A DNA stretch of 64,000 bases, taken from positions 1 to 64,000 of the forward strand of contig NZ_BPEW01000015.1 in assembly GCF_019654975.1 (NCBI RefSeq), read 5' to 3'. Within the stretch, counting starts at the first letter, position 1, and every line of letters begins with the position of its first letter. Positions 11,747 to 40,564 of the stretch are shown here, piece by piece. Under the pieces are notes generated by a model. That model saw only the letters and a program-made list of their open reading frames with translations. It was not told where the DNA came from and made no database searches. Both the position numbers and the translations under genes were made by a program. Origin of the DNA: Shewanella sp. c952 (GTDB lineage Bacteria; Pseudomonadota; Gammaproteobacteria; Enterobacterales; Shewanellaceae).

Positions 11747-12517
11747 CTAGCCAGCATAAGGTGCAAGAATGACTCGCACCCCATGTTTTGCAATACTGTC
11801 GACCGCTTCACTTGGTAACCTGTCATCAGATACCAGCACACTAATATTGCCCCAAGGCAACTCCAAATTAGGAATGCGTCTACCGAGCTTTTCTGACTCC
11901 AACATGACGATCACTTCTCGCGATACTTCCGCCATCACCTTACTCAGGCCTGTTAATTCATTAAAGGTGGTAGTACCGCGCTCAAGGTCGATACCATCAG
12001 CACCGATAAACAACTGATCAAAGTTATAAGAGCGCAGTACCTGCTCAGCAATTTGTCCCTGAAATGATTCCGAATGCGGATCCCAAGTACCGCCTGTCAT
12101 CAGCAGTGTTGGTTCGTTCTCAAGCTCATGGATAGAGTTTGCAAGCGCAAGTGAATTAGTCATCACCAGTAAGCCGCGCTTACTATTTAGCTCACCAATA
12201 AGGCCTGATGTAGTACTGCCACTATCGATAATAATACGGTTGTGGTCATTAATTAGAACCGCTGCTGCTTTTGCTATTGAAAGCTTATTTGGCGCAACCT
12301 TGGCACTAAACTGCTGAGTAACTTCATCAGGCACAGCGACGGCGCCGCCGTATCGACGTAAAAGCAGGCCGGTCTTTTCCAAAGTGGCGAGATCTTTGCG
12401 AATGGTCACTTCAGAAGTTTCGAAACGTAAGGATAACTGCTCAACACTCACTTCACCTTGCTCATTGAGCAGGCTAATAATGCTATGACGACGCTGTTGA
12501 GTGTTTCGTTTATTCAT
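11747..12517 (-). CDS. DeoR-family transcriptional regulator upstream of glmS
   Basis: A 256-residue regulator with an N-terminal DeoR-type winged HTH (QLSLRFETSEVTIRKDLATLEK) and a C-terminal phosphosugar-sensing DeoR domain containing DSGSTTSGLIGEL and GADGIDLERGTTTFN. I placed the start at 12517, where AGCGAAAGG precedes the ATG, rather than 12 codons earlier. DeoR proteins usually respond to a phosphorylated sugar; its position before glmS suggests amino-sugar control, which is inference. Confidence 0.85.
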   Translation of the reverse strand: MNKRNTQQRRHSIISLLNEQGEVSVEQLSLRFETSEVTIRKDLATLEKTGLLLRRYGGAVAVPDEVTQQFSAKVAPNKLSIAKAAAVLINDHNRIIIDSGSTTSGLIGELNSKRGLLVMTNSLALANSIHELENEPTLLMTGGTWDPHSESFQGQIAEQVLRSYNFDQLFIGADGIDLERGTTTFNELTGLSKVMAEVSREVIVMLESEKLGRRIPNLELPWGNISVLVSDDRLPSEAVDSIAKHGVRVILAPYAG

Positions 12518-14892: not shown

Positions 14893-15075
14893 AGCTTCTT
14901 TACATGCCTTTACATTGGGAGGTGATCCTGATCTGTTCTAGATCTGAATATTAACCACACTTAACAGTGCCAACACAAATGATCGCTTGTGTATCATTAA
15001 TTTGCGTTGCTAAAAAGAAAATAATTTCATCTTCTAATCTCTAACAACCAGATTAAAAAGTAAGCACTCACCAAC

Positions 15076-15102
15076 AAAAAAGCGACCCGCTAAGGTCGCT
15101 TT
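15076..15102 (-). terminator. Terminator of glmU
   Basis: On the minus strand, GCGACC and GGTCGC arms around a 6-base loop are followed by six T residues, 20 bases after the glmU stop. Confidence 0.9.
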
Positions 15103-15120
15103 AGTAATGCTAAATAAAGA

Positions 15121-16488
15121 CTATTTTTTAGGGAGCTTTGCCGGACGAGCCCAACCTGAAATATGACGCTGCTTAACCCGCGTAATCACTAATTCATCAG
15201 CAGCAACATCTTTAGTGACAGTAGAACCGGCTCCCAAGGTCGCCCCTTTACCGATGGTAATTGGTGCAACAAGCTGAGTATCACTGCCGACAAATACATT
15301 GTCTTCAATAATGGTCTGGAACTTATTAGCACCATCGTAGTTGCAAGTAATGGTGCCTGCACCAATATTTACACCACTACCGATAGTAGCATCACCAATG
15401 TAAGCTAAATGGCCTGCTTTAGAGCCTTTACCTAGAACCGCTTTTTTCATCTCTACAAAGTTGCCTATATGCGCATCTTCTTTAAGCTCTGCACCTGGAC
15501 GCAGGCGAGCAAATGGGCCGGCACTTGCCTTAACACCAACTTTGGCGTTTTCAACAATCGAGTAAGGTTTGATTTCAGCGTTGTCGGCAATGTCACAATT
15601 AATAAGAATGGCGCCAGCACCAATGGTCACGTTGTTACCAATATTGACCGTACCTTCAATCACCACATTGACATCAATCATCACATCCATACCAACGCTA
15701 ACATCGCCGCGGATATCGATACGAGCAGGATCACGCAGGTTTGCACCTTCAAGCATTAGTTTTTCAGCTGCACGAGCTTGGTAAGCACGCTCAAGTTGAG
15801 CGAGCTGTACTCGGTTATTAGCACCTTCAACTTCAACGGCTGATTCAGGCTGTGCAGTGGTAATTGCAACACCATCTTTATGAGCCATAGCCACGATATC
15901 AGTCAGGTAATATTCACCCTGAGCATTATCTGATGAAAGCTGACCCAGCCAAGCTTTAAGCTGTTTACCGGGAGCAGCCATAATACCAGTGTTGATTTCA
16001 CTAATAGCTAACTGTTCAGCATTGGCATCTTTTTGCTCTACGATGCCAACCACCTTGTTATCTTCACGTACGATACGTCCATAACCCATAGGGTTAGGTA
16101 AGTTAACCGTTAAGATAGCCAATCCATTATCTTCACGAGCAGCAAGCAGTGATTTAAGGGTCGATGCTTGAATAAGTGGCACATCACCATAAAGAATTAA
16201 CACGGTATCATCGTCACTAATATTGTCGTTAGCTTGTGCCACCGCATGTCCGGTACCTAGCTGCTCAGCTTGTAATATCCAGTTAAGTTGCTGCTCACCA
16301 AGCTTAGCTTGAAGCTTGTCTGCACCGTAGCCGTAAACAAGCTGAATCGCATCGCTACCCACTTGATGTGCAGTATCAATCACGTGTTGAACCATGCTTT
16401 TATGGGCAATAGGATGGAGAACTTTGGGAAGATCAGAGCGCATGCGGGTTCCCTTGCCTGCTGCTAAAATCACGACATTCAGTGCCAT
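15121..16488 (-). CDS. glmU: Bifunctional UDP-GlcNAc pyrophosphorylase / GlcN-1-P acetyltransferase
   Basis: GlmU acetylates glucosamine-1-phosphate and then adds uridylate to give UDP-GlcNAc. The N-terminal nucleotidyltransferase domain begins [18 protein letters not shown], and YGDVPLI binds the metal. The C-terminal half is a left-handed beta-helix of hexapeptide repeats ([33 protein letters not shown]). At 455 residues it matches E. coli GlmU. It has its own terminator, so it is transcribed apart from glmS here. Confidence 0.97.
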
Positions 16489-32827: not shown

Positions 32828-33337
32828 ATGTTAAAAAATGGATTTACTCTTATTGAGCTCGTCGTGACGATTATTATTTTGGCCATTCTTTCCGTTGTCG
32901 CTTTACCGCGTTTTATTGAATTACAATCAGATGCTAGAATTTCATCTTTGAATGGGTTAAAAGCAGAGATGCATGGTGCAATGAGCGTATTGTACCCAAA
33001 ATCAGTTTTAGAAGGCTTAGAAAAAAAGCCGGCACCAGCCCCTGGTGAAGAAAACGTAATTATCATCGATGGTGATAAAATTCATTTGGTTTACGGTTAT
33101 CCAGCCGCTGACGCTGCTAATAGCTGGAGCAAACTGATTATGGCTAAATTTGAAGACTCCGTTTTTAATCCTGATAGACCTGCTGATTGGTATTTTCATA
33201 ATAGTAGCGGACAGCCTTTTATCCGTTTTATGCCTCAAACCAAGAAGTTTAGCGGTGACAATTGCTACCTTAAATACACTGAGGCGCAGAGTCCTACTAC
33301 TCCTCCAGTATTTGAGATTGTTGAATCTGGTTGTTAG
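32828..33337 (+). CDS. Type IV prepilin-like protein (orphan)
   Basis: A 169-residue protein with a class III prepilin leader of only five residues: G5 is followed by FTLIELVVTIIILAILSVVALPRF, with Glu at mature position 5 and a long hydrophobic helix. The mature part resembles MSHA-type pilins at its start (FIELQSDARISSLNGLK). Two cysteines near the end (NCYLKY and the terminal ESGC) could close a D-loop. No peptidase, ATPase or other pilin genes are nearby, so it would rely on a machine encoded elsewhere. Confidence 0.85.
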   Translation: MLKNGFTLIELVVTIIILAILSVVALPRFIELQSDARISSLNGLKAEMHGAMSVLYPKSVLEGLEKKPAPAPGEENVIIIDGDKIHLVYGYPAADAANSWSKLIMAKFEDSVFNPDRPADWYFHNSSGQPFIRFMPQTKKFSGDNCYLKYTEAQSPTTPPVFEIVESGC

Positions 33338-33346
33338 CTCAGGTTA

Positions 33347-33542
33347 TTAATAGAGCATCGCCAGTGGCCTGTTTTTCAGCATTTTCCAGGGCTCGTTGAC
33401 AATAGATTCATACAGTTCCCAAGTTGACCTAAGCAAACTTATCATTCCTATCGTACTCCCATTGTCGGCTCTATTGGATTCATACACTCAAAGCATGAGT
33501 TTTTTACTCATCTCTTTATGTTGAATATAGGCTTATCCGTTG
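33347..33542 (-). pseudogene. Decayed C-terminal fragment of a PLD-helicase-DUF3427 gene
   Basis: Read on the minus strand, this stretch translates as AYIQHKEMSKKLML-stop-VYESNRADNGSTIG, then WELYES...PWKML, and a stop at 33347. It aligns with AYIQHKDSGKKIMLWVRESNKDENGNTMG and WELHEP...LWKDA at the end of the intact gene at 34724-37882. DNA identity is plain too, for example ATCTCTTTATGTTGAATATAGG here against ATCTTTATGTTGAATATAGG there. A Trp has become a stop, and about 15 codons between NTMG and WEL are lost. Nothing of the rest of the gene remains upstream. Confidence 0.85.
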
Positions 33543-33622
33543 TTAGAACCATTTTACTTGGGGCTTTGTAGCGCTCTTTTGCTACTCTATGAGCCATAAT
33601 CACCTTTTACCTTGAATGTAAT

Positions 33623-34552
33623 ATGAAATTAGATGAGATAATTACCACTTTGAGTCGCGGCGACTTAACAGAACTCCCCATTGGTGCTCTACAGGCGGCT
33701 AGGCTGCAGTGGTCTGAGTTACTGCCAGTTATTGAAGCATTGATGCAAAGATTTATTGCTAAGGAGACATTGTCTGATACAGAGTCTAATCTGCTTTTTT
33801 TCGGCATCTGTCTTATTGCCGATCGTAAGCAATATAACAGCTTAGACTCTCTGATTAATCTTACCAATAAAGATGATTGTAATAGTCCGTTAGAAGCGCT
33901 GCTTGGAGATTTTATCGCTTCAGATCTTGCTACCGCTTACTACATTTTGGCGCAAGGACAGCCTGAAAAACTGTGCTTTTTGGTTAACTCTGACCAAGCT
34001 GGCGAAATGGTTAAAGTAGCCGCTTTAAATGCATTGTTTACTCAATTACATACAAGCCAAATTGATAGAGCGACACTTGATCAATACGTTGCAGATTTTA
34101 TCGATAATCTTGTCGAAAACGATCACTCCATCACTCTGTTTGAGCTGATTAATCTATTAATTTCTAATAAGTTTAATCAATATCATGACCAGTTTGTAGG
34201 TTATGTAGAAAGTAAGCTCATCGATGAAGGTCCTGCTGAGAATCAGTGCATCCTTGATTGGGATAATCAATCTATCGGCTATTCAGCATGGGAAAGTGGC
34301 CTAATAAGCGCAGATTATGATGTTATTGATTCCCTCAGCCAGTGGACTGGATTTAACTCAGAGTCAGAGATGAATGATGATGATCTTATGGCCGTTTTCG
34401 ATGACCTAATGAGTTCGCCTAGGGAAATTGACGATAGCTACTTTGAAAGCCTCGATGCTAAGCTGCCTTTTATCGCCGATATTCAAGCAGGTCGCAATGA
34501 TCCTTGCCCCTGTGGCAGCGGCAAAAAATACAAGAAGTGCTGTTTGAATTAG
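33623..34552 (+). CDS. DUF1186-like protein with C-terminal SEC-C zinc motif
   Basis: A 309-residue soluble protein, mostly helical and acidic, ending in the SEC-C metal-binding motif [20 protein letters not shown] (CxC...CC, zinc). The body resembles DUF1186 proteins, whose function is unknown. SEC-C modules are found on SecA and on many stand-alone proteins as an interaction module. It sits between the helicase relic and the intact helicase gene and converges on the latter. Confidence 0.75.
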
Positions 34553-34583
34553 CACGGAAATTTTGGATGTCTATATGCTTTAT

Positions 34584-34613
34584 AGGCATTTTCGTATCCA
34601 AATGGAAATGCCT
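34584..34613. terminator. Hairpin between the SEC-C gene and the helicase gene
   Basis: AGGCATTT and AAATGCCT form an 8-bp stem with a 14-base loop followed by AATTTTTG on the plus strand, 32 bases after the SEC-C gene stop. Confidence 0.5.
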
Positions 34614-34723
34614 AATTTTTGTTAAAAAAGAGTGCCTGTATGTTCGAAGATAATATTCATTTTTTAACGGACATAGCATTTTTCGCCGCTTATATCTAGA
34701 AAGTAGATGGTTACTACTAGAAT

Positions 34724-37700
34724 TTAACTGTTTGCTAATTTTGCTGCATCTTTCCAAAGGTAACTAGGCATTGGCTCATGCAATTCCCAAGTGATGTTCA
34801 TTGGTTGTGAACCGCAAGCCTCTGCTAAGTTTACCCATCCCAAGTTCACAAATCCCATCGTATTTCCATTTTCGTCTTTATTTGATTCTCGCACCCAAAG
34901 CATGATTTTTTTGCCACTATCTTTATGTTGAATATAGGCCAATCCTTTGCCTTTATCTGGTCTAGCTGAATTTTGAGTTTGCCAATGGAACTGAGTAGGG
35001 CTCATTGCATAATCATGGTAAAGCGTCGTAGGAGAAAAATGCTGATCTGACTTTTGCAACGTGACAAATAGTAATTCTACGTTGAGCTCTCTTAAGTTGA
35101 ATACTCCTTCGCGGCTCACTGCTTGTTTTTCAAAACTTGAGCCACCCATTCCTGTAATTATTTGCTCTCGAGTGTAGCGAGCATTGAGTTGTAGTGGGCA
35201 AGGAAAATCTGCGTGAAACTTTTGAATTTGAGTATCGTTATTATCTAATAAGTAATTGATAACTTCTATTAATTCATTTCTATATTCAGGATGGTAAAGT
35301 GCTGATAAGCTTTCAGATAAAGATTTATAACCTAGCTTATCTCCAGCACAATTCCAAAAATCATAGTGACACATTAGGGCCATTTTTTGCTCTATTGGGT
35401 CACCATTATCTATCCAGTTAAAGTTATTAATTGCTAGTGAACGAATAAATGTTAGATAAGTTCTAGCATCACATCTCATCAAGCTGTTGCTAATAGCCTT
35501 GTGATAAATTTCAGCTATAGGGGTTTCATCTACTTTTTGTATTAGTTTTAGATTACTTAAAAGGCGTGTCCACCCTCCACCTTTACTAGGCTTATTTTTG
35601 TAAATATCAAGTATTTGAATGTTAGTGTAGAAATTTAAGAAATTACTTAATGTCAGTTTTTGATTTGTATGATGTTGAAAGTTCTCAATGTGGGATTTTA
35701 GTTTTTGTTGATTTAATATGGCTTTCTTAATGTTTGTTAAAATTATTTCTTTGGTTTTTTTCTGCAGTTCGATGTGACAACCAAGCGGAAGATGAGGAAA
35801 GCCATGCTCTATTTCTTTGCTTATGGCTGTATGGGTCTTTCCTATTAAAGCTCTAAATTTTTGTGAGAAATCATATTCAGCTTTAGCATTACCAACAAAA
35901 TCCAATACTGTGACACACTCTTTACCATCGCTGTGGCGTAAGCCTCTGCCTAGCTGTTGTAAAAAAATAGTCAAACTTTCTGTTGGTCGTAAGAAGAGTA
36001 GGGTATCTATTTCTGGAATATCAACGCCTTCATTGAATATATCTACAACGCAGAGGATATTAATATTACCTCGCTGCAGTTCTTGTCTTACTGCGTGCCT
36101 TTCAGAAATGTTTTTACTGGTAAGTACCGCACTTGGTATACCTTTGAGACAAAACTTTTCTGCCATATATTGAGCATGATCTTGGTTGACACAAAAAGCC
36201 AATGCACGCATTTCTAAGGGCTTAGTGACAAGCTCTTCAATATTTTGCAGTATTTTTTGTAGTCTTTGATCATTTTGGGTATAGAGTTGAGTTAACTCAC
36301 TTGGGTTGTAGCGGCCGTTTTCCCACTTTATCTGACGTAGGTCGGTATTATCATCTATACCAAAATATTGAAAAGGACATAAATGCCTTAGATTAATTGC
36401 TTCAGGTAATCTGAGTTCCGCAGCTATCACCCCTTCAAAATCACCTAATATGCTGTTGCCGTCATGACGTTCGGGGGTAGCGGTAAGCCCTAGTAAAATA
36501 GTAGGGGAAAAGTGGTTAATGAATTTTCGATAACTATCAGCTGATACATGATGAACTTCGTCAATCACTATGAAATCATAATAGTCTGAGTTTAGCTTTA
36601 TATTATTTATTTGATTATTGAAGCTCTGGATTGATGCAAAAAGGTGATTGTATGAATCTGGTTTATGTTGTCCTACCCACAGTTCACCAAAATTAGGTTG
36701 TTTTAGTACAGCTCTAAAACTTTCTATTGCCTGTTTTAATATTTCTTCTCTATGAGCAATAAATAGAATTTTGGCCGTCGGGTTATTCTGATAGAAACGT
36801 TTGAAATCGAAAGCTGATATCAAGGTTTTCCCAGTACCTGTAGCAGCTACAATCAGGTTCCTATTTCGACCATGAATATTCCGCTCTGAATCTAAACGTT
36901 CTAAAATTTCTATTTGATGTTGATGAGGGCTTAAATCGAAGAATACTGTACTTGAAAAATCTTTATCTCCACGACCAGCACTAAGAGACCGCTTTAGCTT
37001 GTTGCTCGCTTTCTCTGAACCATCGAAAAACTCAAATTCAGGTTGCTGCCAATATGTTTCAAATGTACTGAATGTTTTATCTATGATGTGTGGGATTTCT
37101 TGATTGGTAATCTTCAAGTTCCACTCTAGTCCATTTGTTAACGCGGACCGTGAAAGGTTTGATGAGCCAATATAGCCAGTATGAAATCCAGAATCTCGCA
37201 TGAACAAATAGGACTTAGCATGGAGACGTTCTTGGTTATGGTTATAGCTTAGTTTAACTTCGGTATTAGGAAGTTGGGCTAACCATTGCACAGCTTTAAG
37301 ATCTGTCGCCCCCATATATGATGTCGTAATTATTTGAAGCTTATGTTTGCTGTTACTCGAAAAAGTTCGCAGTTCATCCATGAAGATTCTGAGACCGGTC
37401 CATTTGATAAATGAAACAATCCAGCAGATTCTATTAGAAGATAATATTTCACGCTTTATTTCACTTTCCAGTGAAATTCCTTGGTTACTTCCGCAGAACA
37501 ACTCACTCTGTGTGAGACCGGTAAGAGGGGTTACTTTATCAATATGTGCGGATAATTTAGCTGAAACAGGATCTTGTTTGTCAAATATTGCAGTAAGAAG
37601 TTTTGCTGGCTGGTTAATGGTGAAACTTGATAAGTCGAGATTATCAATTCTTTCTTGGAGCCAGTAGATAAGCTCATTAGCGAGCTCTATTTGGGTTAAC

Positions 37701-37882
37701 GGAGAATCTTTCGTATTTTTTGATTCAGATATTGCAAGGTGGAATACCTTTACTAAAGCGCGAGTAAGCCAGAGAGTTTGCTCTGTTGTATCCATATTTC
37801 TTTCTGCGATAAAGAACTTGTTTTTATCTAACTTATGGCTAATAACTTTAGTTATAAGCTGTTCGTAAATACCTGTTTGCAT
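34724..37882 (-). CDS. PLD nuclease-like / superfamily II helicase / DUF3427 fusion protein
   Basis: A 1052-residue multidomain protein. Residues about 130-260 form a phospholipase-D-like nuclease domain with one HxK motif (H221, K223) and GSSN (239-242). A superfamily II helicase follows: Walker A AATGTGKT (346-353), DEVH (441-444), LTATPER (466-472) and QQLGRGLRH (642-650). The last about 350 residues read as a DUF3427-type region. The single HKD suggests the nuclease acts as a dimer, as in NgoFVII/BfiI-type enzymes. Proteins of this plan are sporadic and often placed among restriction or defence genes; that role is inference. The gene looks A/T-richer than its neighbours. Confidence 0.85.
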   Translation of the reverse strand: MQTGIYEQLITKVISHKLDKNKFFIAERNMDTTEQTLWLTRALVKVFHLAISESKNTKDSPLTQIELANELIYWLQERIDNLDLSSFTINQPAKLLTAIFDKQDPVSAKLSAHIDKVTPLTGLTQSELFCGSNQGISLESEIKREILSSNRICWIVSFIKWTGLRIFMDELRTFSSNSKHKLQIITTSYMGATDLKAVQWLAQLPNTEVKLSYNHNQERLHAKSYLFMRDSGFHTGYIGSSNLSRSALTNGLEWNLKITNQEIPHIIDKTFSTFETYWQQPEFEFFDGSEKASNKLKRSLSAGRGDKDFSSTVFFDLSPHQHQIEILERLDSERNIHGRNRNLIVAATGTGKTLISAFDFKRFYQNNPTAKILFIAHREEILKQAIESFRAVLKQPNFGELWVGQHKPDSYNHLFASIQSFNNQINNIKLNSDYYDFIVIDEVHHVSADSYRKFINHFSPTILLGLTATPERHDGNSILGDFEGVIAAELRLPEAINLRHLCPFQYFGIDDNTDLRQIKWENGRYNPSELTQLYTQNDQRLQKILQNIEELVTKPLEMRALAFCVNQDHAQYMAEKFCLKGIPSAVLTSKNISERHAVRQELQRGNINILCVVDIFNEGVDIPEIDTLLFLRPTESLTIFLQQLGRGLRHSDGKECVTVLDFVGNAKAEYDFSQKFRALIGKTHTAISKEIEHGFPHLPLGCHIELQKKTKEIILTNIKKAILNQQKLKSHIENFQHHTNQKLTLSNFLNFYTNIQILDIYKNKPSKGGGWTRLLSNLKLIQKVDETPIAEIYHKAISNSLMRCDARTYLTFIRSLAINNFNWIDNGDPIEQKMALMCHYDFWNCAGDKLGYKSLSESLSALYHPEYRNELIEVINYLLDNNDTQIQKFHADFPCPLQLNARYTREQIITGMGGSSFEKQAVSREGVFNLRELNVELLFVTLQKSDQHFSPTTLYHDYAMSPTQFHWQTQNSARPDKGKGLAYIQHKDSGKKIMLWVRESNKDENGNTMGFVNLGWVNLAEACGSQPMNITWELHEPMPSYLWKDAAKLANS

Positions 37883-37943
37883 TGAAAAACTCTGGCCATC
37901 TATATTGATATAAACTATGCCAGGAAACCTATCTAATGCAAGT

Positions 37944-37961
37944 TATTACTGAATAGTAATA
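37944..37961. promoter_or_regulatory. Palindrome between divergent helicase genes
   Basis: TATTACT and AGTAATA flank four bases in the 174-bp gap between the PLD-helicase gene and hrpB. It is a candidate operator, with no known match. Confidence 0.3.
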
Positions 37962-38056
37962 TCACCATATTTATTGATCTTTAATTTGTCAGGATATACC
38001 TAATTTCCTGAGCTACGCGTTATTATAGTTTCAACTTTATTGTTCAGAATATTAGT

Positions 38057-40564
38057 ATGCCCATTTTAGAAAAACTAACACTTCCTATAGACGCTCTCTA
38101 CCAAGAGTTTAAATCTTCTATTAAAGACAATCACTTAGTGGTTGAGTCTGATACAGGCTCGGGCAAGTCGACTCGTTTACCACTGTGGTGTACTGAAGCT
38201 GATGGGCAAGGGAATAAGAAGAGGGTGTTGGTGGTTGAGCCACGGCGAGTGGCGTGTTTGGCACTGGCAGCTTTTGTGGGCGAGTCAGCTAAGCAAGATA
38301 CTGATTATAATCATTTAAATGTTGGTCATGCTATTCGCTTTGATTCTACTGTTGATGAAAACACTGATATTGCCTTTGTAACCCCAGGTATTGCGCTGCG
38401 CTGGCTGTCTATGGTACTAGATGGTCAGGATGAAAAGGCGGGCTTAGCTTGTTTTGATACGGTGATTATTGATGAGTTTCATGAGCGCCGTTGGGATACC
38501 GATCTGCTATTAGCGCTACTTAAACAGCGCGCTCAACATCGTTTGATTTTGACATCAGCAACCATTGACGGTGCAAGACTAAATGACTACCTGTCTGATT
38601 CTATTGGAGTTAATTCAAAGAGGTTGTTGGCAAAAGGTAATATGTTTCACGTGGAACTAACGTACCAGTCAAGCGATAGTCAGCAGTTAGCGGATATCAG
38701 CGGTATCGAGCAAAAAGTAAAAGCGGCCGTTAGCTCGTTACTCAGTCAAACAGCCGGTGACATTTTAGTATTTTTACCGGGTAAAAAAGAGATTAAACAG
38801 TGTTTACAAGCTTGTCAGTCGTTATCTTCTTTATCTAGCGACAACGCGGCAGACATCTATTTAGTGGCATTGCATGGCGGCATTTCGGCGACAGAACAAC
38901 AAGCATTACTGGCAAGCTCCGATAAGCAACGAATTATTTTCGCTACTAATATTGCTGAAACCTCGTTAACTATCCCAGGTGTTACGGCGGTGATTGATTC
39001 TGGGCTTGAGCGCCGTACTCATCAGCGTAATGGTCGTACTGTGTTGTCGCTTGCACGAATATCAAGGGCCAGCAGCGAGCAGCGCAAAGGCCGTGCAGGT
39101 CGTACGCAAGCGGGTTTGTGTGTGCGCTTGTGGGGCGAGCATGCGCCGATGGAGGCGATGACACCGCCAGAACTGCAGCGTGAAGAACTGGTGGAACCTA
39201 TGCTGGCAGCAGCTTGTAGCGATATGAAGCTAGCCGATTTAGTTTTTGTTGATGCTATTGGCATTAAGCCGCTCGCTATTGCCCATGAGCGCTTGTTGGC
39301 TATGGGGGCGATTGATGCTCAAGGGCAAGTCACTGCTCATGGTAGAAAGCTGTTTCCATTACCGATAGATACTCAGTTTGCCCATTTGATTAGTGCTATG
39401 CCCGATATTGAGTGCACAGAGTTAATGGTCGATTTGGCGGCCGCTATTAGTGTGCCGCAGCGTTTGTACCAGCAACCTAGTGCAGAATATGACATTAAGT
39501 CGCTACATGATTGGGAGCCACTGGGCTGCGATGCTTTTACCTTAATTAAACTGCTGCGCGAGCCAGCGGTTGATTCTATTGATATTGAACAGCATGCGGT
39601 AAAAGAGGCGCGTCGCTTAGCTAACCAGATAAGACAAGGCTTAGGTTTAGAGAGTTTACATAAAGCGGTGGTGCTAGACCACAAATCAGAAGCGTTGCGA
39701 AGCCGTTGGTTACTGGCGGTAGTAAAAGCATTACCTGAACTTGCTTTTATTCGACGTGTTAAACGAGTACAGGCGTTGGGCAATGGTTTTAGCGAAGTGC
39801 AGATTGGCCGAGATAGCCGTTTTAGTCCCGAACTTAAAGATTTTTCCGGTAAGGATGCTGCCATTGCAGCAGTGGTGTTTGATCAACACTCACTGGCAGG
39901 TAAAGGAGTAAAGCAGACGCTAAATCTGGCTTCTGTAATGGCACCCATTTCAACAGAACTGCTTTATCAAGCTGGTTTAGGTGAAGATAGACTGGCAGAA
40001 AACAAAGAGCAGGCGGCGACCCATAAAGTGCTGATAGAGCGAATATATGCTGGCAGAGTGATAGATTCTCGGTTTGAGCGCGCATCGGGCGAACAGGCGA
40101 TAGATGCGATTACACGCAGTATTATTCAAGGGCGAGAGTTTGCAGGTATTGCTAAGCGTTTAACCGCAGATATAGCGGCTTGGAATATATGGTTTGCGCT
40201 AGGAAAAACCACTGAGTTTGACAGTGAAATTAATCAGTCTTTGGTGCTTGAACCCTATCTTAAACAAAAGCTCGTTCAGCTAGGGGTGGAGAGCTTTGAA
40301 GATTTAGCTTTGGTTGAAGCTGAAGATCTACTATTTGAAGGTATTCCTGATTGGCAACGTGAAGAGTTTGATGGTCTTTATCCTGCTCAATTAGCGCTAG
40401 CAGAACTTAAGCTCGCTGTGAGTTATGAGCCTAAACGAAAGTTGGTGCTACTCGACTACTTAAACGGCAGCCGTAAACAGGGTCCTAAACGCTGGGAGTT
40501 ACCTCGTTGGCTAGGTTGGAAGATCCAATATCGCAAAGCTAGTCGTGTGGTTGATGTAAAATAA
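38057..40564 (+). CDS. hrpB: ATP-dependent RNA helicase HrpB
   Basis: A DExH-box helicase of the HrpB type, 835 residues. Walker A is DTGSGKSTRLPL, motif II is DEFHERRWD (DEFH as in E. coli HrpB), motif III is SATID, motif V is TNIAETSLTIPGVTAVIDSGLERR and motif VI is QRKGRAGRTQAG. The HrpB C-terminal region ends KRWELPRWLGWKI. Role is probably RNA metabolism, not well defined. It contains a parS-like site at 38643-38658. Confidence 0.93.
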   Translation: MPILEKLTLPIDALYQEFKSSIKDNHLVVESDTGSGKSTRLPLWCTEADGQGNKKRVLVVEPRRVACLALAAFVGESAKQDTDYNHLNVGHAIRFDSTVDENTDIAFVTPGIALRWLSMVLDGQDEKAGLACFDTVIIDEFHERRWDTDLLLALLKQRAQHRLILTSATIDGARLNDYLSDSIGVNSKRLLAKGNMFHVELTYQSSDSQQLADISGIEQKVKAAVSSLLSQTAGDILVFLPGKKEIKQCLQACQSLSSLSSDNAADIYLVALHGGISATEQQALLASSDKQRIIFATNIAETSLTIPGVTAVIDSGLERRTHQRNGRTVLSLARISRASSEQRKGRAGRTQAGLCVRLWGEHAPMEAMTPPELQREELVEPMLAAACSDMKLADLVFVDAIGIKPLAIAHERLLAMGAIDAQGQVTAHGRKLFPLPIDTQFAHLISAMPDIECTELMVDLAAAISVPQRLYQQPSAEYDIKSLHDWEPLGCDAFTLIKLLREPAVDSIDIEQHAVKEARRLANQIRQGLGLESLHKAVVLDHKSEALRSRWLLAVVKALPELAFIRRVKRVQALGNGFSEVQIGRDSRFSPELKDFSGKDAAIAAVVFDQHSLAGKGVKQTLNLASVMAPISTELLYQAGLGEDRLAENKEQAATHKVLIERIYAGRVIDSRFERASGEQAIDAITRSIIQGREFAGIAKRLTADIAAWNIWFALGKTTEFDSEINQSLVLEPYLKQKLVQLGVESFEDLALVEAEDLLFEGIPDWQREEFDGLYPAQLALAELKLAVSYEPKRKLVLLDYLNGSRKQGPKRWELPRWLGWKIQYRKASRVVDVK
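38643..38658. other. parS: parS-like site inside hrpB
   Basis: TGTTTCACGTGGAACT matches the ParB site consensus TGTTNCACGTGNAACA at every fixed base but the last. It encodes Met-Phe-His-Val-Glu-Leu (residues 196-201) of HrpB. Confidence 0.65.

Follow-up and report, generated by a model that had tools for sequence, protein, structure and literature searches.

The fragment and its neighbourhood

The window, the whole 64,000-nucleotide stretch of Shewanella DNA analysed here, carries near mioC and gidA, in what is presumably the origin region, a decayed gene fragment, or relic, wedged between a pilin-like gene and a gene for a SEC-C protein. The names mioC, gidA, lysE, hrpB and mnmE stand here for presumed identities. 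The features on which the argument turns are as follows.

32828-33337, plus strand: pilin-like gene with an N-methylation motif (PF07963; Pfam), convergent with the relic
33347-33544, minus strand: relic, the decayed 3' end of a SauUSI-like gene, about codons 980-1044 (DNA alignment, BLAST, tblastn, translation)
33530-33545, no strand: joint between restriction enzyme (REase)-derived sequence and the SEC-C upstream region (DNA alignments)
33546-33622, plus strand: conserved SEC-C upstream region, probably promoter and leader by prediction
33623-34552, plus strand: gene for a DUF1186/SEC-C protein of 309 aa (PF06685, PF02810)
34583-34614, plus strand: terminator-like stem-loop between the SEC-C gene and the convergent REase gene (1 found, 1.0 expected in shuffles, hence not above chance)
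34724-37882, minus strand: intact gene for a putative SauUSI-like type IV restriction enzyme of 1052 aa, PLD - SF2 helicase - DUF3427 (Pfam, PADLOC, phmmer)
38057-40564, plus strand: helicase gene hrpB (DEAD, Helicase_C), right border of the hotspot described below

The protein encoded by the intact gene matches PLDc_2, ResIII, Helicase_C and DUF3427 in Pfam, mREase_IV in PADLOC (E 2.4e-212) and, by phmmer over residues 135-670 (E 8.8e-83), chain 7clg_A ('Putative helicase', 953 residues), which we take to be SauUSI. It unites a PLD nuclease, an SF2 helicase and DUF3427 in one chain, the combination by which a SauUSI-like type IV enzyme is recognised. SauUSI itself is described as a single-chain PLD-ATPase-recognition enzyme whose target is 5-methylcytosine (PMC7913695, PMC3874153), with substrate recognition proposed, in the account of PMC3874153, for the DUF3427 part. 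The domain order of these modification-dependent enzymes is preserved in the intact protein, but its PLD motif, read by eye, is HAKSYLFM, so that HAK is present and M occupies the E position of the H(X)K(X)4E motif reported in PMC7913695, and the phmmer match stops short of the C-terminal recognition part.

The minus strand of 33347-33544 is a decayed copy of about codons 980-1044 of this gene, as an earlier note made from the letters of the DNA had proposed. The best local DNA alignment of the two scores 61.0, against a maximum of 24.5 in 300 single-base shuffles and a maximum of 20.5 for window segments outside 33000-38000, and BLAST gives 79% identity over 97 bp (E 2e-17). Alignment of the minus-strand translation to the intact C-terminus, a check that the note had suggested, yields a significant tblastn match to residues 980-1044 (42% identity, E 3e-8, at 33383-33538), the counterpart being the end of DUF3427 (residues 848-1045). 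The relic translates as NNG*AYIQHKEMSKKLML*VYESNRADNGSTIGMISLLRSTWELYESIVNEPWKMLKNRPLAMLY*, where the intact 1052-residue protein ends in ...GLAYIQHKDSGKKIMLWVRESNKDENGNTMGFVNLGWVNLAEACGSQPMNITWELHEPMPSYLWKDAAKLANS. The stop reported at a Trp position is indeed there, as TGA, although it is one of two in frame, the other being TAA for the Leu of GLAY; the deletion put at 15 codons measures 39 nt, or 13 codons, in the DNA alignment, and a one-base gap near the 3' end throws the last codons out of register. The reported layout was right throughout, with the relic on the same strand as the intact gene, about 1.2 kb from it, and the SEC-C gene between them.

Significant homology and a disrupted frame together mark the relic as a pseudogene of a SauUSI-like gene, which at about 65 codons is, in contrast to SauUSI, not an enzyme. 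It most likely has no function, since the gene's own start is absent, a promoter scan found no promoter-like site on the minus strand, and the sequence has drifted since. A regulatory function of the region was considered and rejected: there is a single promoter-like site (4.0 expected), which lies within the relic on the plus strand, and a single terminator-like site (1.0 expected), neither above chance. A scan for the sigma-70 consensus gave no site in 33546-33622.

The relic and its joint in other Shewanella genomes

A search of the genus covered 129 genomes, one per species. All 129 give some match through a short SEC-C motif, and 23, the window's included, hold a full-length SEC-C relative. 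Twenty-four regions were compared, comprising one from each of the 22 other SEC-C genomes, a second contig of G027, and G164, which has the REase without SEC-C and with a different left neighbour. Exact sequence matches give names to some of these genomes: G021 is Shewanella abyssi, G004 S. gelidimarina, G150 S. canadensis, G062 S. atlantica and G054 S. kaireitica, G058 and G074 are S. benthica strains, and G071 is a Shewanella metagenome assembly.

By tblastn the order pilin-like gene, relic, SEC-C gene is found in the window, G004 and G175. The G004 relic covers query residues 980-1052 at 49% identity, and that of G175 covers residues 991-1049 at 66% identity, with two internal stops (one TAG, one TAA); it is the best match to the enzyme in the whole G175 genome searched. 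G019 and G021 keep about 46 bp of the relic with the same joint and have no pilin-like gene, and a weak similarity over about 20 bp in G054 and G086, seen by eye, was not counted as relic. The other SEC-C loci gave no relic at E 1e-3 (tblastn) or at E 1e-4 (partial-match scan). When 33330-33640 was searched as DNA against 145 relatives, 16 gave a match, one of them being the window's own genome; among the 15 others only G019, G021 and G004 reach clearly into the relic, and the remaining matches are to the SEC-C upstream part, to the intact REase or to 32 bp elsewhere, G175 not being among them. A recent duplication in this strain is ruled out, because the relic is common to other species. Arrival of the pilin-like gene and the relic together is not favoured, as 11 of 15 other regions with a pilin-like relative have it beside lysE and contain neither SEC-C nor relic there (in one region, G016, the contig ends 0.7 kb beyond it).

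The earlier note had read the relic as the remains of a second full-length gene and had suggested looking for complete copies at its place across Shewanella genomes. None exists there among the loci compared: all three readable relics hold only the last 60-73 or so codons, from about codon 980 onward, and the homology breaks off at the same codon in each. In the DNA alignments of the window, G004, G175, G019 and G021 the homology ends at the same place, about codon 978, and all five ends abut the start of the conserved SEC-C upstream region. Most SEC-C loci of the genus resemble one another over this region of roughly 80-100 bp and differ by lineage in the sequence to its left (judged by eye); more distant SEC-C loci have the region too, with unrelated sequence to its left. 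The left flank to which the SEC-C unit is joined thus differs, and for the window's group it is the tail of a REase gene. The exact base of the joint cannot be placed, because the two parents look alike, by eye, over about 10 bp of weak similarity, a possible micro-homology.

In a tree of relics and REases built on about 230 bp the three relics cluster with one another (ultrafast bootstrap 87) and fall on the side of clade A; the place of this group within clade A is poorly supported. Mean DNA identity of the relics is 0.67-0.77 to 12 clade-A REases versus 0.49-0.55 to 19 of clade B, and tree and identities together rule out the clade-B enzymes (56-59% protein identity) as the source. The relics of G004 and G175, close relatives with a gidA dS of 0.13, are 89% identical to each other; those of the window and G004 are only 62% identical, so that the case for their common origin is made by position and joint. 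To intact copies the relics are 66-78% identical, with gaps. The SEC-C gene has itself been exchanged between lineages (G054-G086 dS 0.09, versus 0.95 for lysE), so that the sharing of the relic may partly reflect transfer.

Restriction systems to the right of the SEC-C gene

The interval to the right of the SEC-C gene is a defence hotspot. A restriction-related gene stands there in 21 of the 23 loci, and these genes are of at least six kinds. The cargo is SauUSI-like in ten loci (window, G054, G004, G062, G011, G185, G003, G180, G014 and G071, the last cut by a contig end) and AspBHI-like in three (G019, G021, G058). Three more hold a cytosine methylase with an MvaI/BcnI-type nuclease, recognised by Pfam in G175 and by similarity to G175 in G074 and G010, and single loci hold an Eco47II-type restriction-modification (R-M) pair (G086), an HpaII-type R-M system (G173), an HNH nuclease (G150), a cytosine methylase whose partner nuclease was not recognised (G155), and McrB_N and PDDEXK_7 genes (G177). 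The SEC-C relative in G177 shows 53% identity, and no other border gene lies near it. The two loci without cargo are G053, with none beside SEC-C, and G027, where the contig ends about 0.3 kb after SEC-C. YoeB/YefM genes were confirmed in G185, and Fic genes in G054 and G185. In the G053 locus (L098, 7962-8888) the SEC-C gene lies between mioC and lysE and not beyond lysE, and has thus changed place.

Synonymous distances, calculated with our own Nei-Gojobori script (values above about 1.5 are near saturation), show that part of this cargo has travelled. Between G004 and G011 the REase dS is 0.26, against 0.94 for SEC-C, 2.04 for lysE and saturation for gidA; between G004 and G062 the values are 0.33 for the REase, 0.82 for SEC-C and 1.78 for lysE. 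With its dS so far below that of its neighbours, the SauUSI-like gene has moved between these lineages apart from them. The window and G054 differ by 0.45 in the REase, near the 0.38 of gidA and compatible with descent, and the window and G004 by 0.77, below gidA (1.08), SEC-C (1.35) and hrpB (1.80). G004 and G175, despite their close kinship, hold different cargoes, SauUSI-like versus MvaI/BcnI-type R-M pair. The defence-gene turnover that the earlier note suspected is thus borne out, both by the differing restriction systems of related species and by these distances; its description of an otherwise conserved origin region does not hold, since the stretch from lysE to hrpB varies strongly between species.

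As in other defence hotspots between conserved genes, one chromosomal interval carries different restriction systems from species to species, but here no one mobile element stood out as the driver. G086 has two tRNA-Val genes between the SEC-C gene and the Eco47II-type pair (L086, 6092-6280), and no tRNA genes were found in the other 22 of the 23 loci scanned or in the window. Transposases exceed the Pfam cut-off in two of five candidate ORFs tested (G155, G010), with a sub-threshold match in G003, and next to the relic no insertion element was seen; such elements may play a part in the turnover of the hotspot. No paper on this interval stands among the titles that literature searches listed, and a search on the combined topics gave none.

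Whether the SEC-C gene is a general partner of restriction genes was considered with three more distant genomes of the order, G480, G135 and G332, where SEC-C identity is 31-38%. PADLOC found no restriction enzyme in ten chosen neighbouring ORFs, so that the link between SEC-C and restriction is not seen outside the genus in these three genomes and ten ORFs. Two ORFs match the defence candidate PDC-M51A (E 5.5e-32 and 3.5e-30), one right after SEC-C in G480 (L142, 7101-8783) and one close after it in G332 (L144, 9969-11693), and there are matches of ABC-ATPase type in G135 and a partial match to PglW in G480. From its PDC-M51A neighbours, SEC-C may be linked with defence in a wider sense.

Origin of the relic

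The explanation that we consider probable is that the relic is an orphaned 3' end, the scar of an insertion of SEC-C and cargo into the defence hotspot by one-sided recombination. A resident SauUSI-like gene would have had its 3' end facing the pilin-like gene in an ancestor of several Shewanella species, and the incoming DNA would have consisted of SEC-C with a cargo gene to its right. On the right side it would have recombined by homology, within the REase gene or in hrpB, and on the left it would have been sealed by an illegitimate joint inside the resident REase gene, at about codon 978. The outcome would be SEC-C and an intact cargo on the right, with the last 75 or so codons of the former resident cut off next to the pilin-like gene and left to drift. 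This mechanism and the order of its events are what we infer; it is favoured because it accounts in one step for the stranded tail, the fixed joint and the intact gene beyond SEC-C. The left joint to new DNA is seen at the SEC-C upstream region, and the right-hand homologous crossover was not located. The order predicted before insertion, a pilin-like gene facing an intact REase gene with no SEC-C, occurs in none of the genomes compared, the nearest being G164.

There are precedents for such events. One-sided recombination is described in PMC3240628 for naturally competent bacteria, mostly with micro-homology of 3-10 bp, and the same source gives homology-facilitated illegitimate recombination (HFIR) as rare. 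Recombination with homology at one end only has also been proposed, tentatively, to explain displaced type VI secretion (T6SS) effector-immunity modules, orphaned immunity genes and the orphaned 3' ends of Rhs genes, where likewise genes or their ends lie beside newer modules (PMC5361080). The present case differs from these in that the gene is that of a restriction enzyme, the tail is decayed, and the adjoining inserted DNA starts with SEC-C.

An appreciably less likely account holds that a complete second SauUSI-like gene, from tandem duplication or separate acquisition, once lay between the pilin-like gene and SEC-C and has since been mostly deleted. Homology, common strand, nonsense codons and deletion all accord with it, as does the loss of DNA within the group, where G019 and G021 are without the pilin-like gene and most of the relic; yet in three species what is left stops at the same codon, right against the conserved SEC-C upstream region, and no part of the gene below codon 980 turned up at this place when the loci were scanned for partial matches (E 1e-4). 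Copying of a short tail fragment from the neighbouring intact gene, with no incoming DNA at all, is quite improbable. The intact gene does lie 1.2 kb away on the same strand in the window, and close by in G004 too, but G175 has the relic without an intact copy, the relics group with one another (at the bootstrap of 87 given above) and not each with its own neighbour, and the intact gene of G004 is nearest to those of other lineages, as its dS of 0.26-0.33 with G011 and G062 indicates.

The relic is not alone in this hotspot, whose border genes repeatedly leave stranded ends. In G054 (L085, reversed so that SEC-C is on the plus strand) hrpB codons 1-54, frameshifted, lie at 11992-12148 between REase and Fic gene, the order being REase, a window-like intergenic region, hrpB codons 1-54, Fic gene and complete hrpB. 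This displaced piece scores 216.5 in alignment to the window's REase-hrpB junction and 91.5 to the start of G054's own hrpB (maximum 32.5 in 200 single-base shuffles). In G150 (L090) about 32 codons of the hrpB 3' tail follow intact hrpB at 15045-15160 (score 61.0; maximum 35.0 in 200 single-base shuffles). Both are scars similar to the relic.

The relic suggests an earlier resident SauUSI-like gene and points to an insertion of SEC-C with cargo that predates the divergence of several Shewanella species. An orphaned gene end is a known kind of genome debris, and the value of this one is as evidence: it draws attention to a hotspot near mioC and gidA in which at least six kinds of restriction system take each other's place, and such ends could mark similar exchanges in other genomes. 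A bolder proposal, and a doubtful one, is that SEC-C with its 80-100 bp or so of upstream sequence may be a carrier unit by which Shewanella chromosomes receive interchangeable restriction systems with no integrase involved, landing by one-sided homology and leaving orphaned ends of border genes; were it true, one could read from the scraps how defence genes beside the replication origin were replaced in succession. That the stranded ends might serve as homology arms favouring further cassette exchange is most improbable. Terminal fragments of border genes do occur in at least three forms in the hotspot, but the relics are gapped, interrupted by stops and 66-78% identical to intact copies, and such diverged, gapped sequence is a poor substrate for RecA.

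Several minor observations concern the same genes. Further short hrpB tail matches lie in G150 (L090) at 15256-15417, and G062 seems to have a repeated piece after its hrpB as well. Fragments of hrpB also lie between the pilin-like gene and mnmE, with no SEC-C there, in G165 (L125, 8121-8708) and G076 (L127, 5290-6098), and a weak one lies between the same two genes in G072. Among the clade-B REase genes, G066:C8:16113-19295 has an internal stop and G166:C1:3988821-3991961 is matched in several pieces. In G080 (L135, 5935-6756) an open frame matches only REase residues 788-1050, and is possibly a stand-alone DUF3427 protein or another stranded tail.
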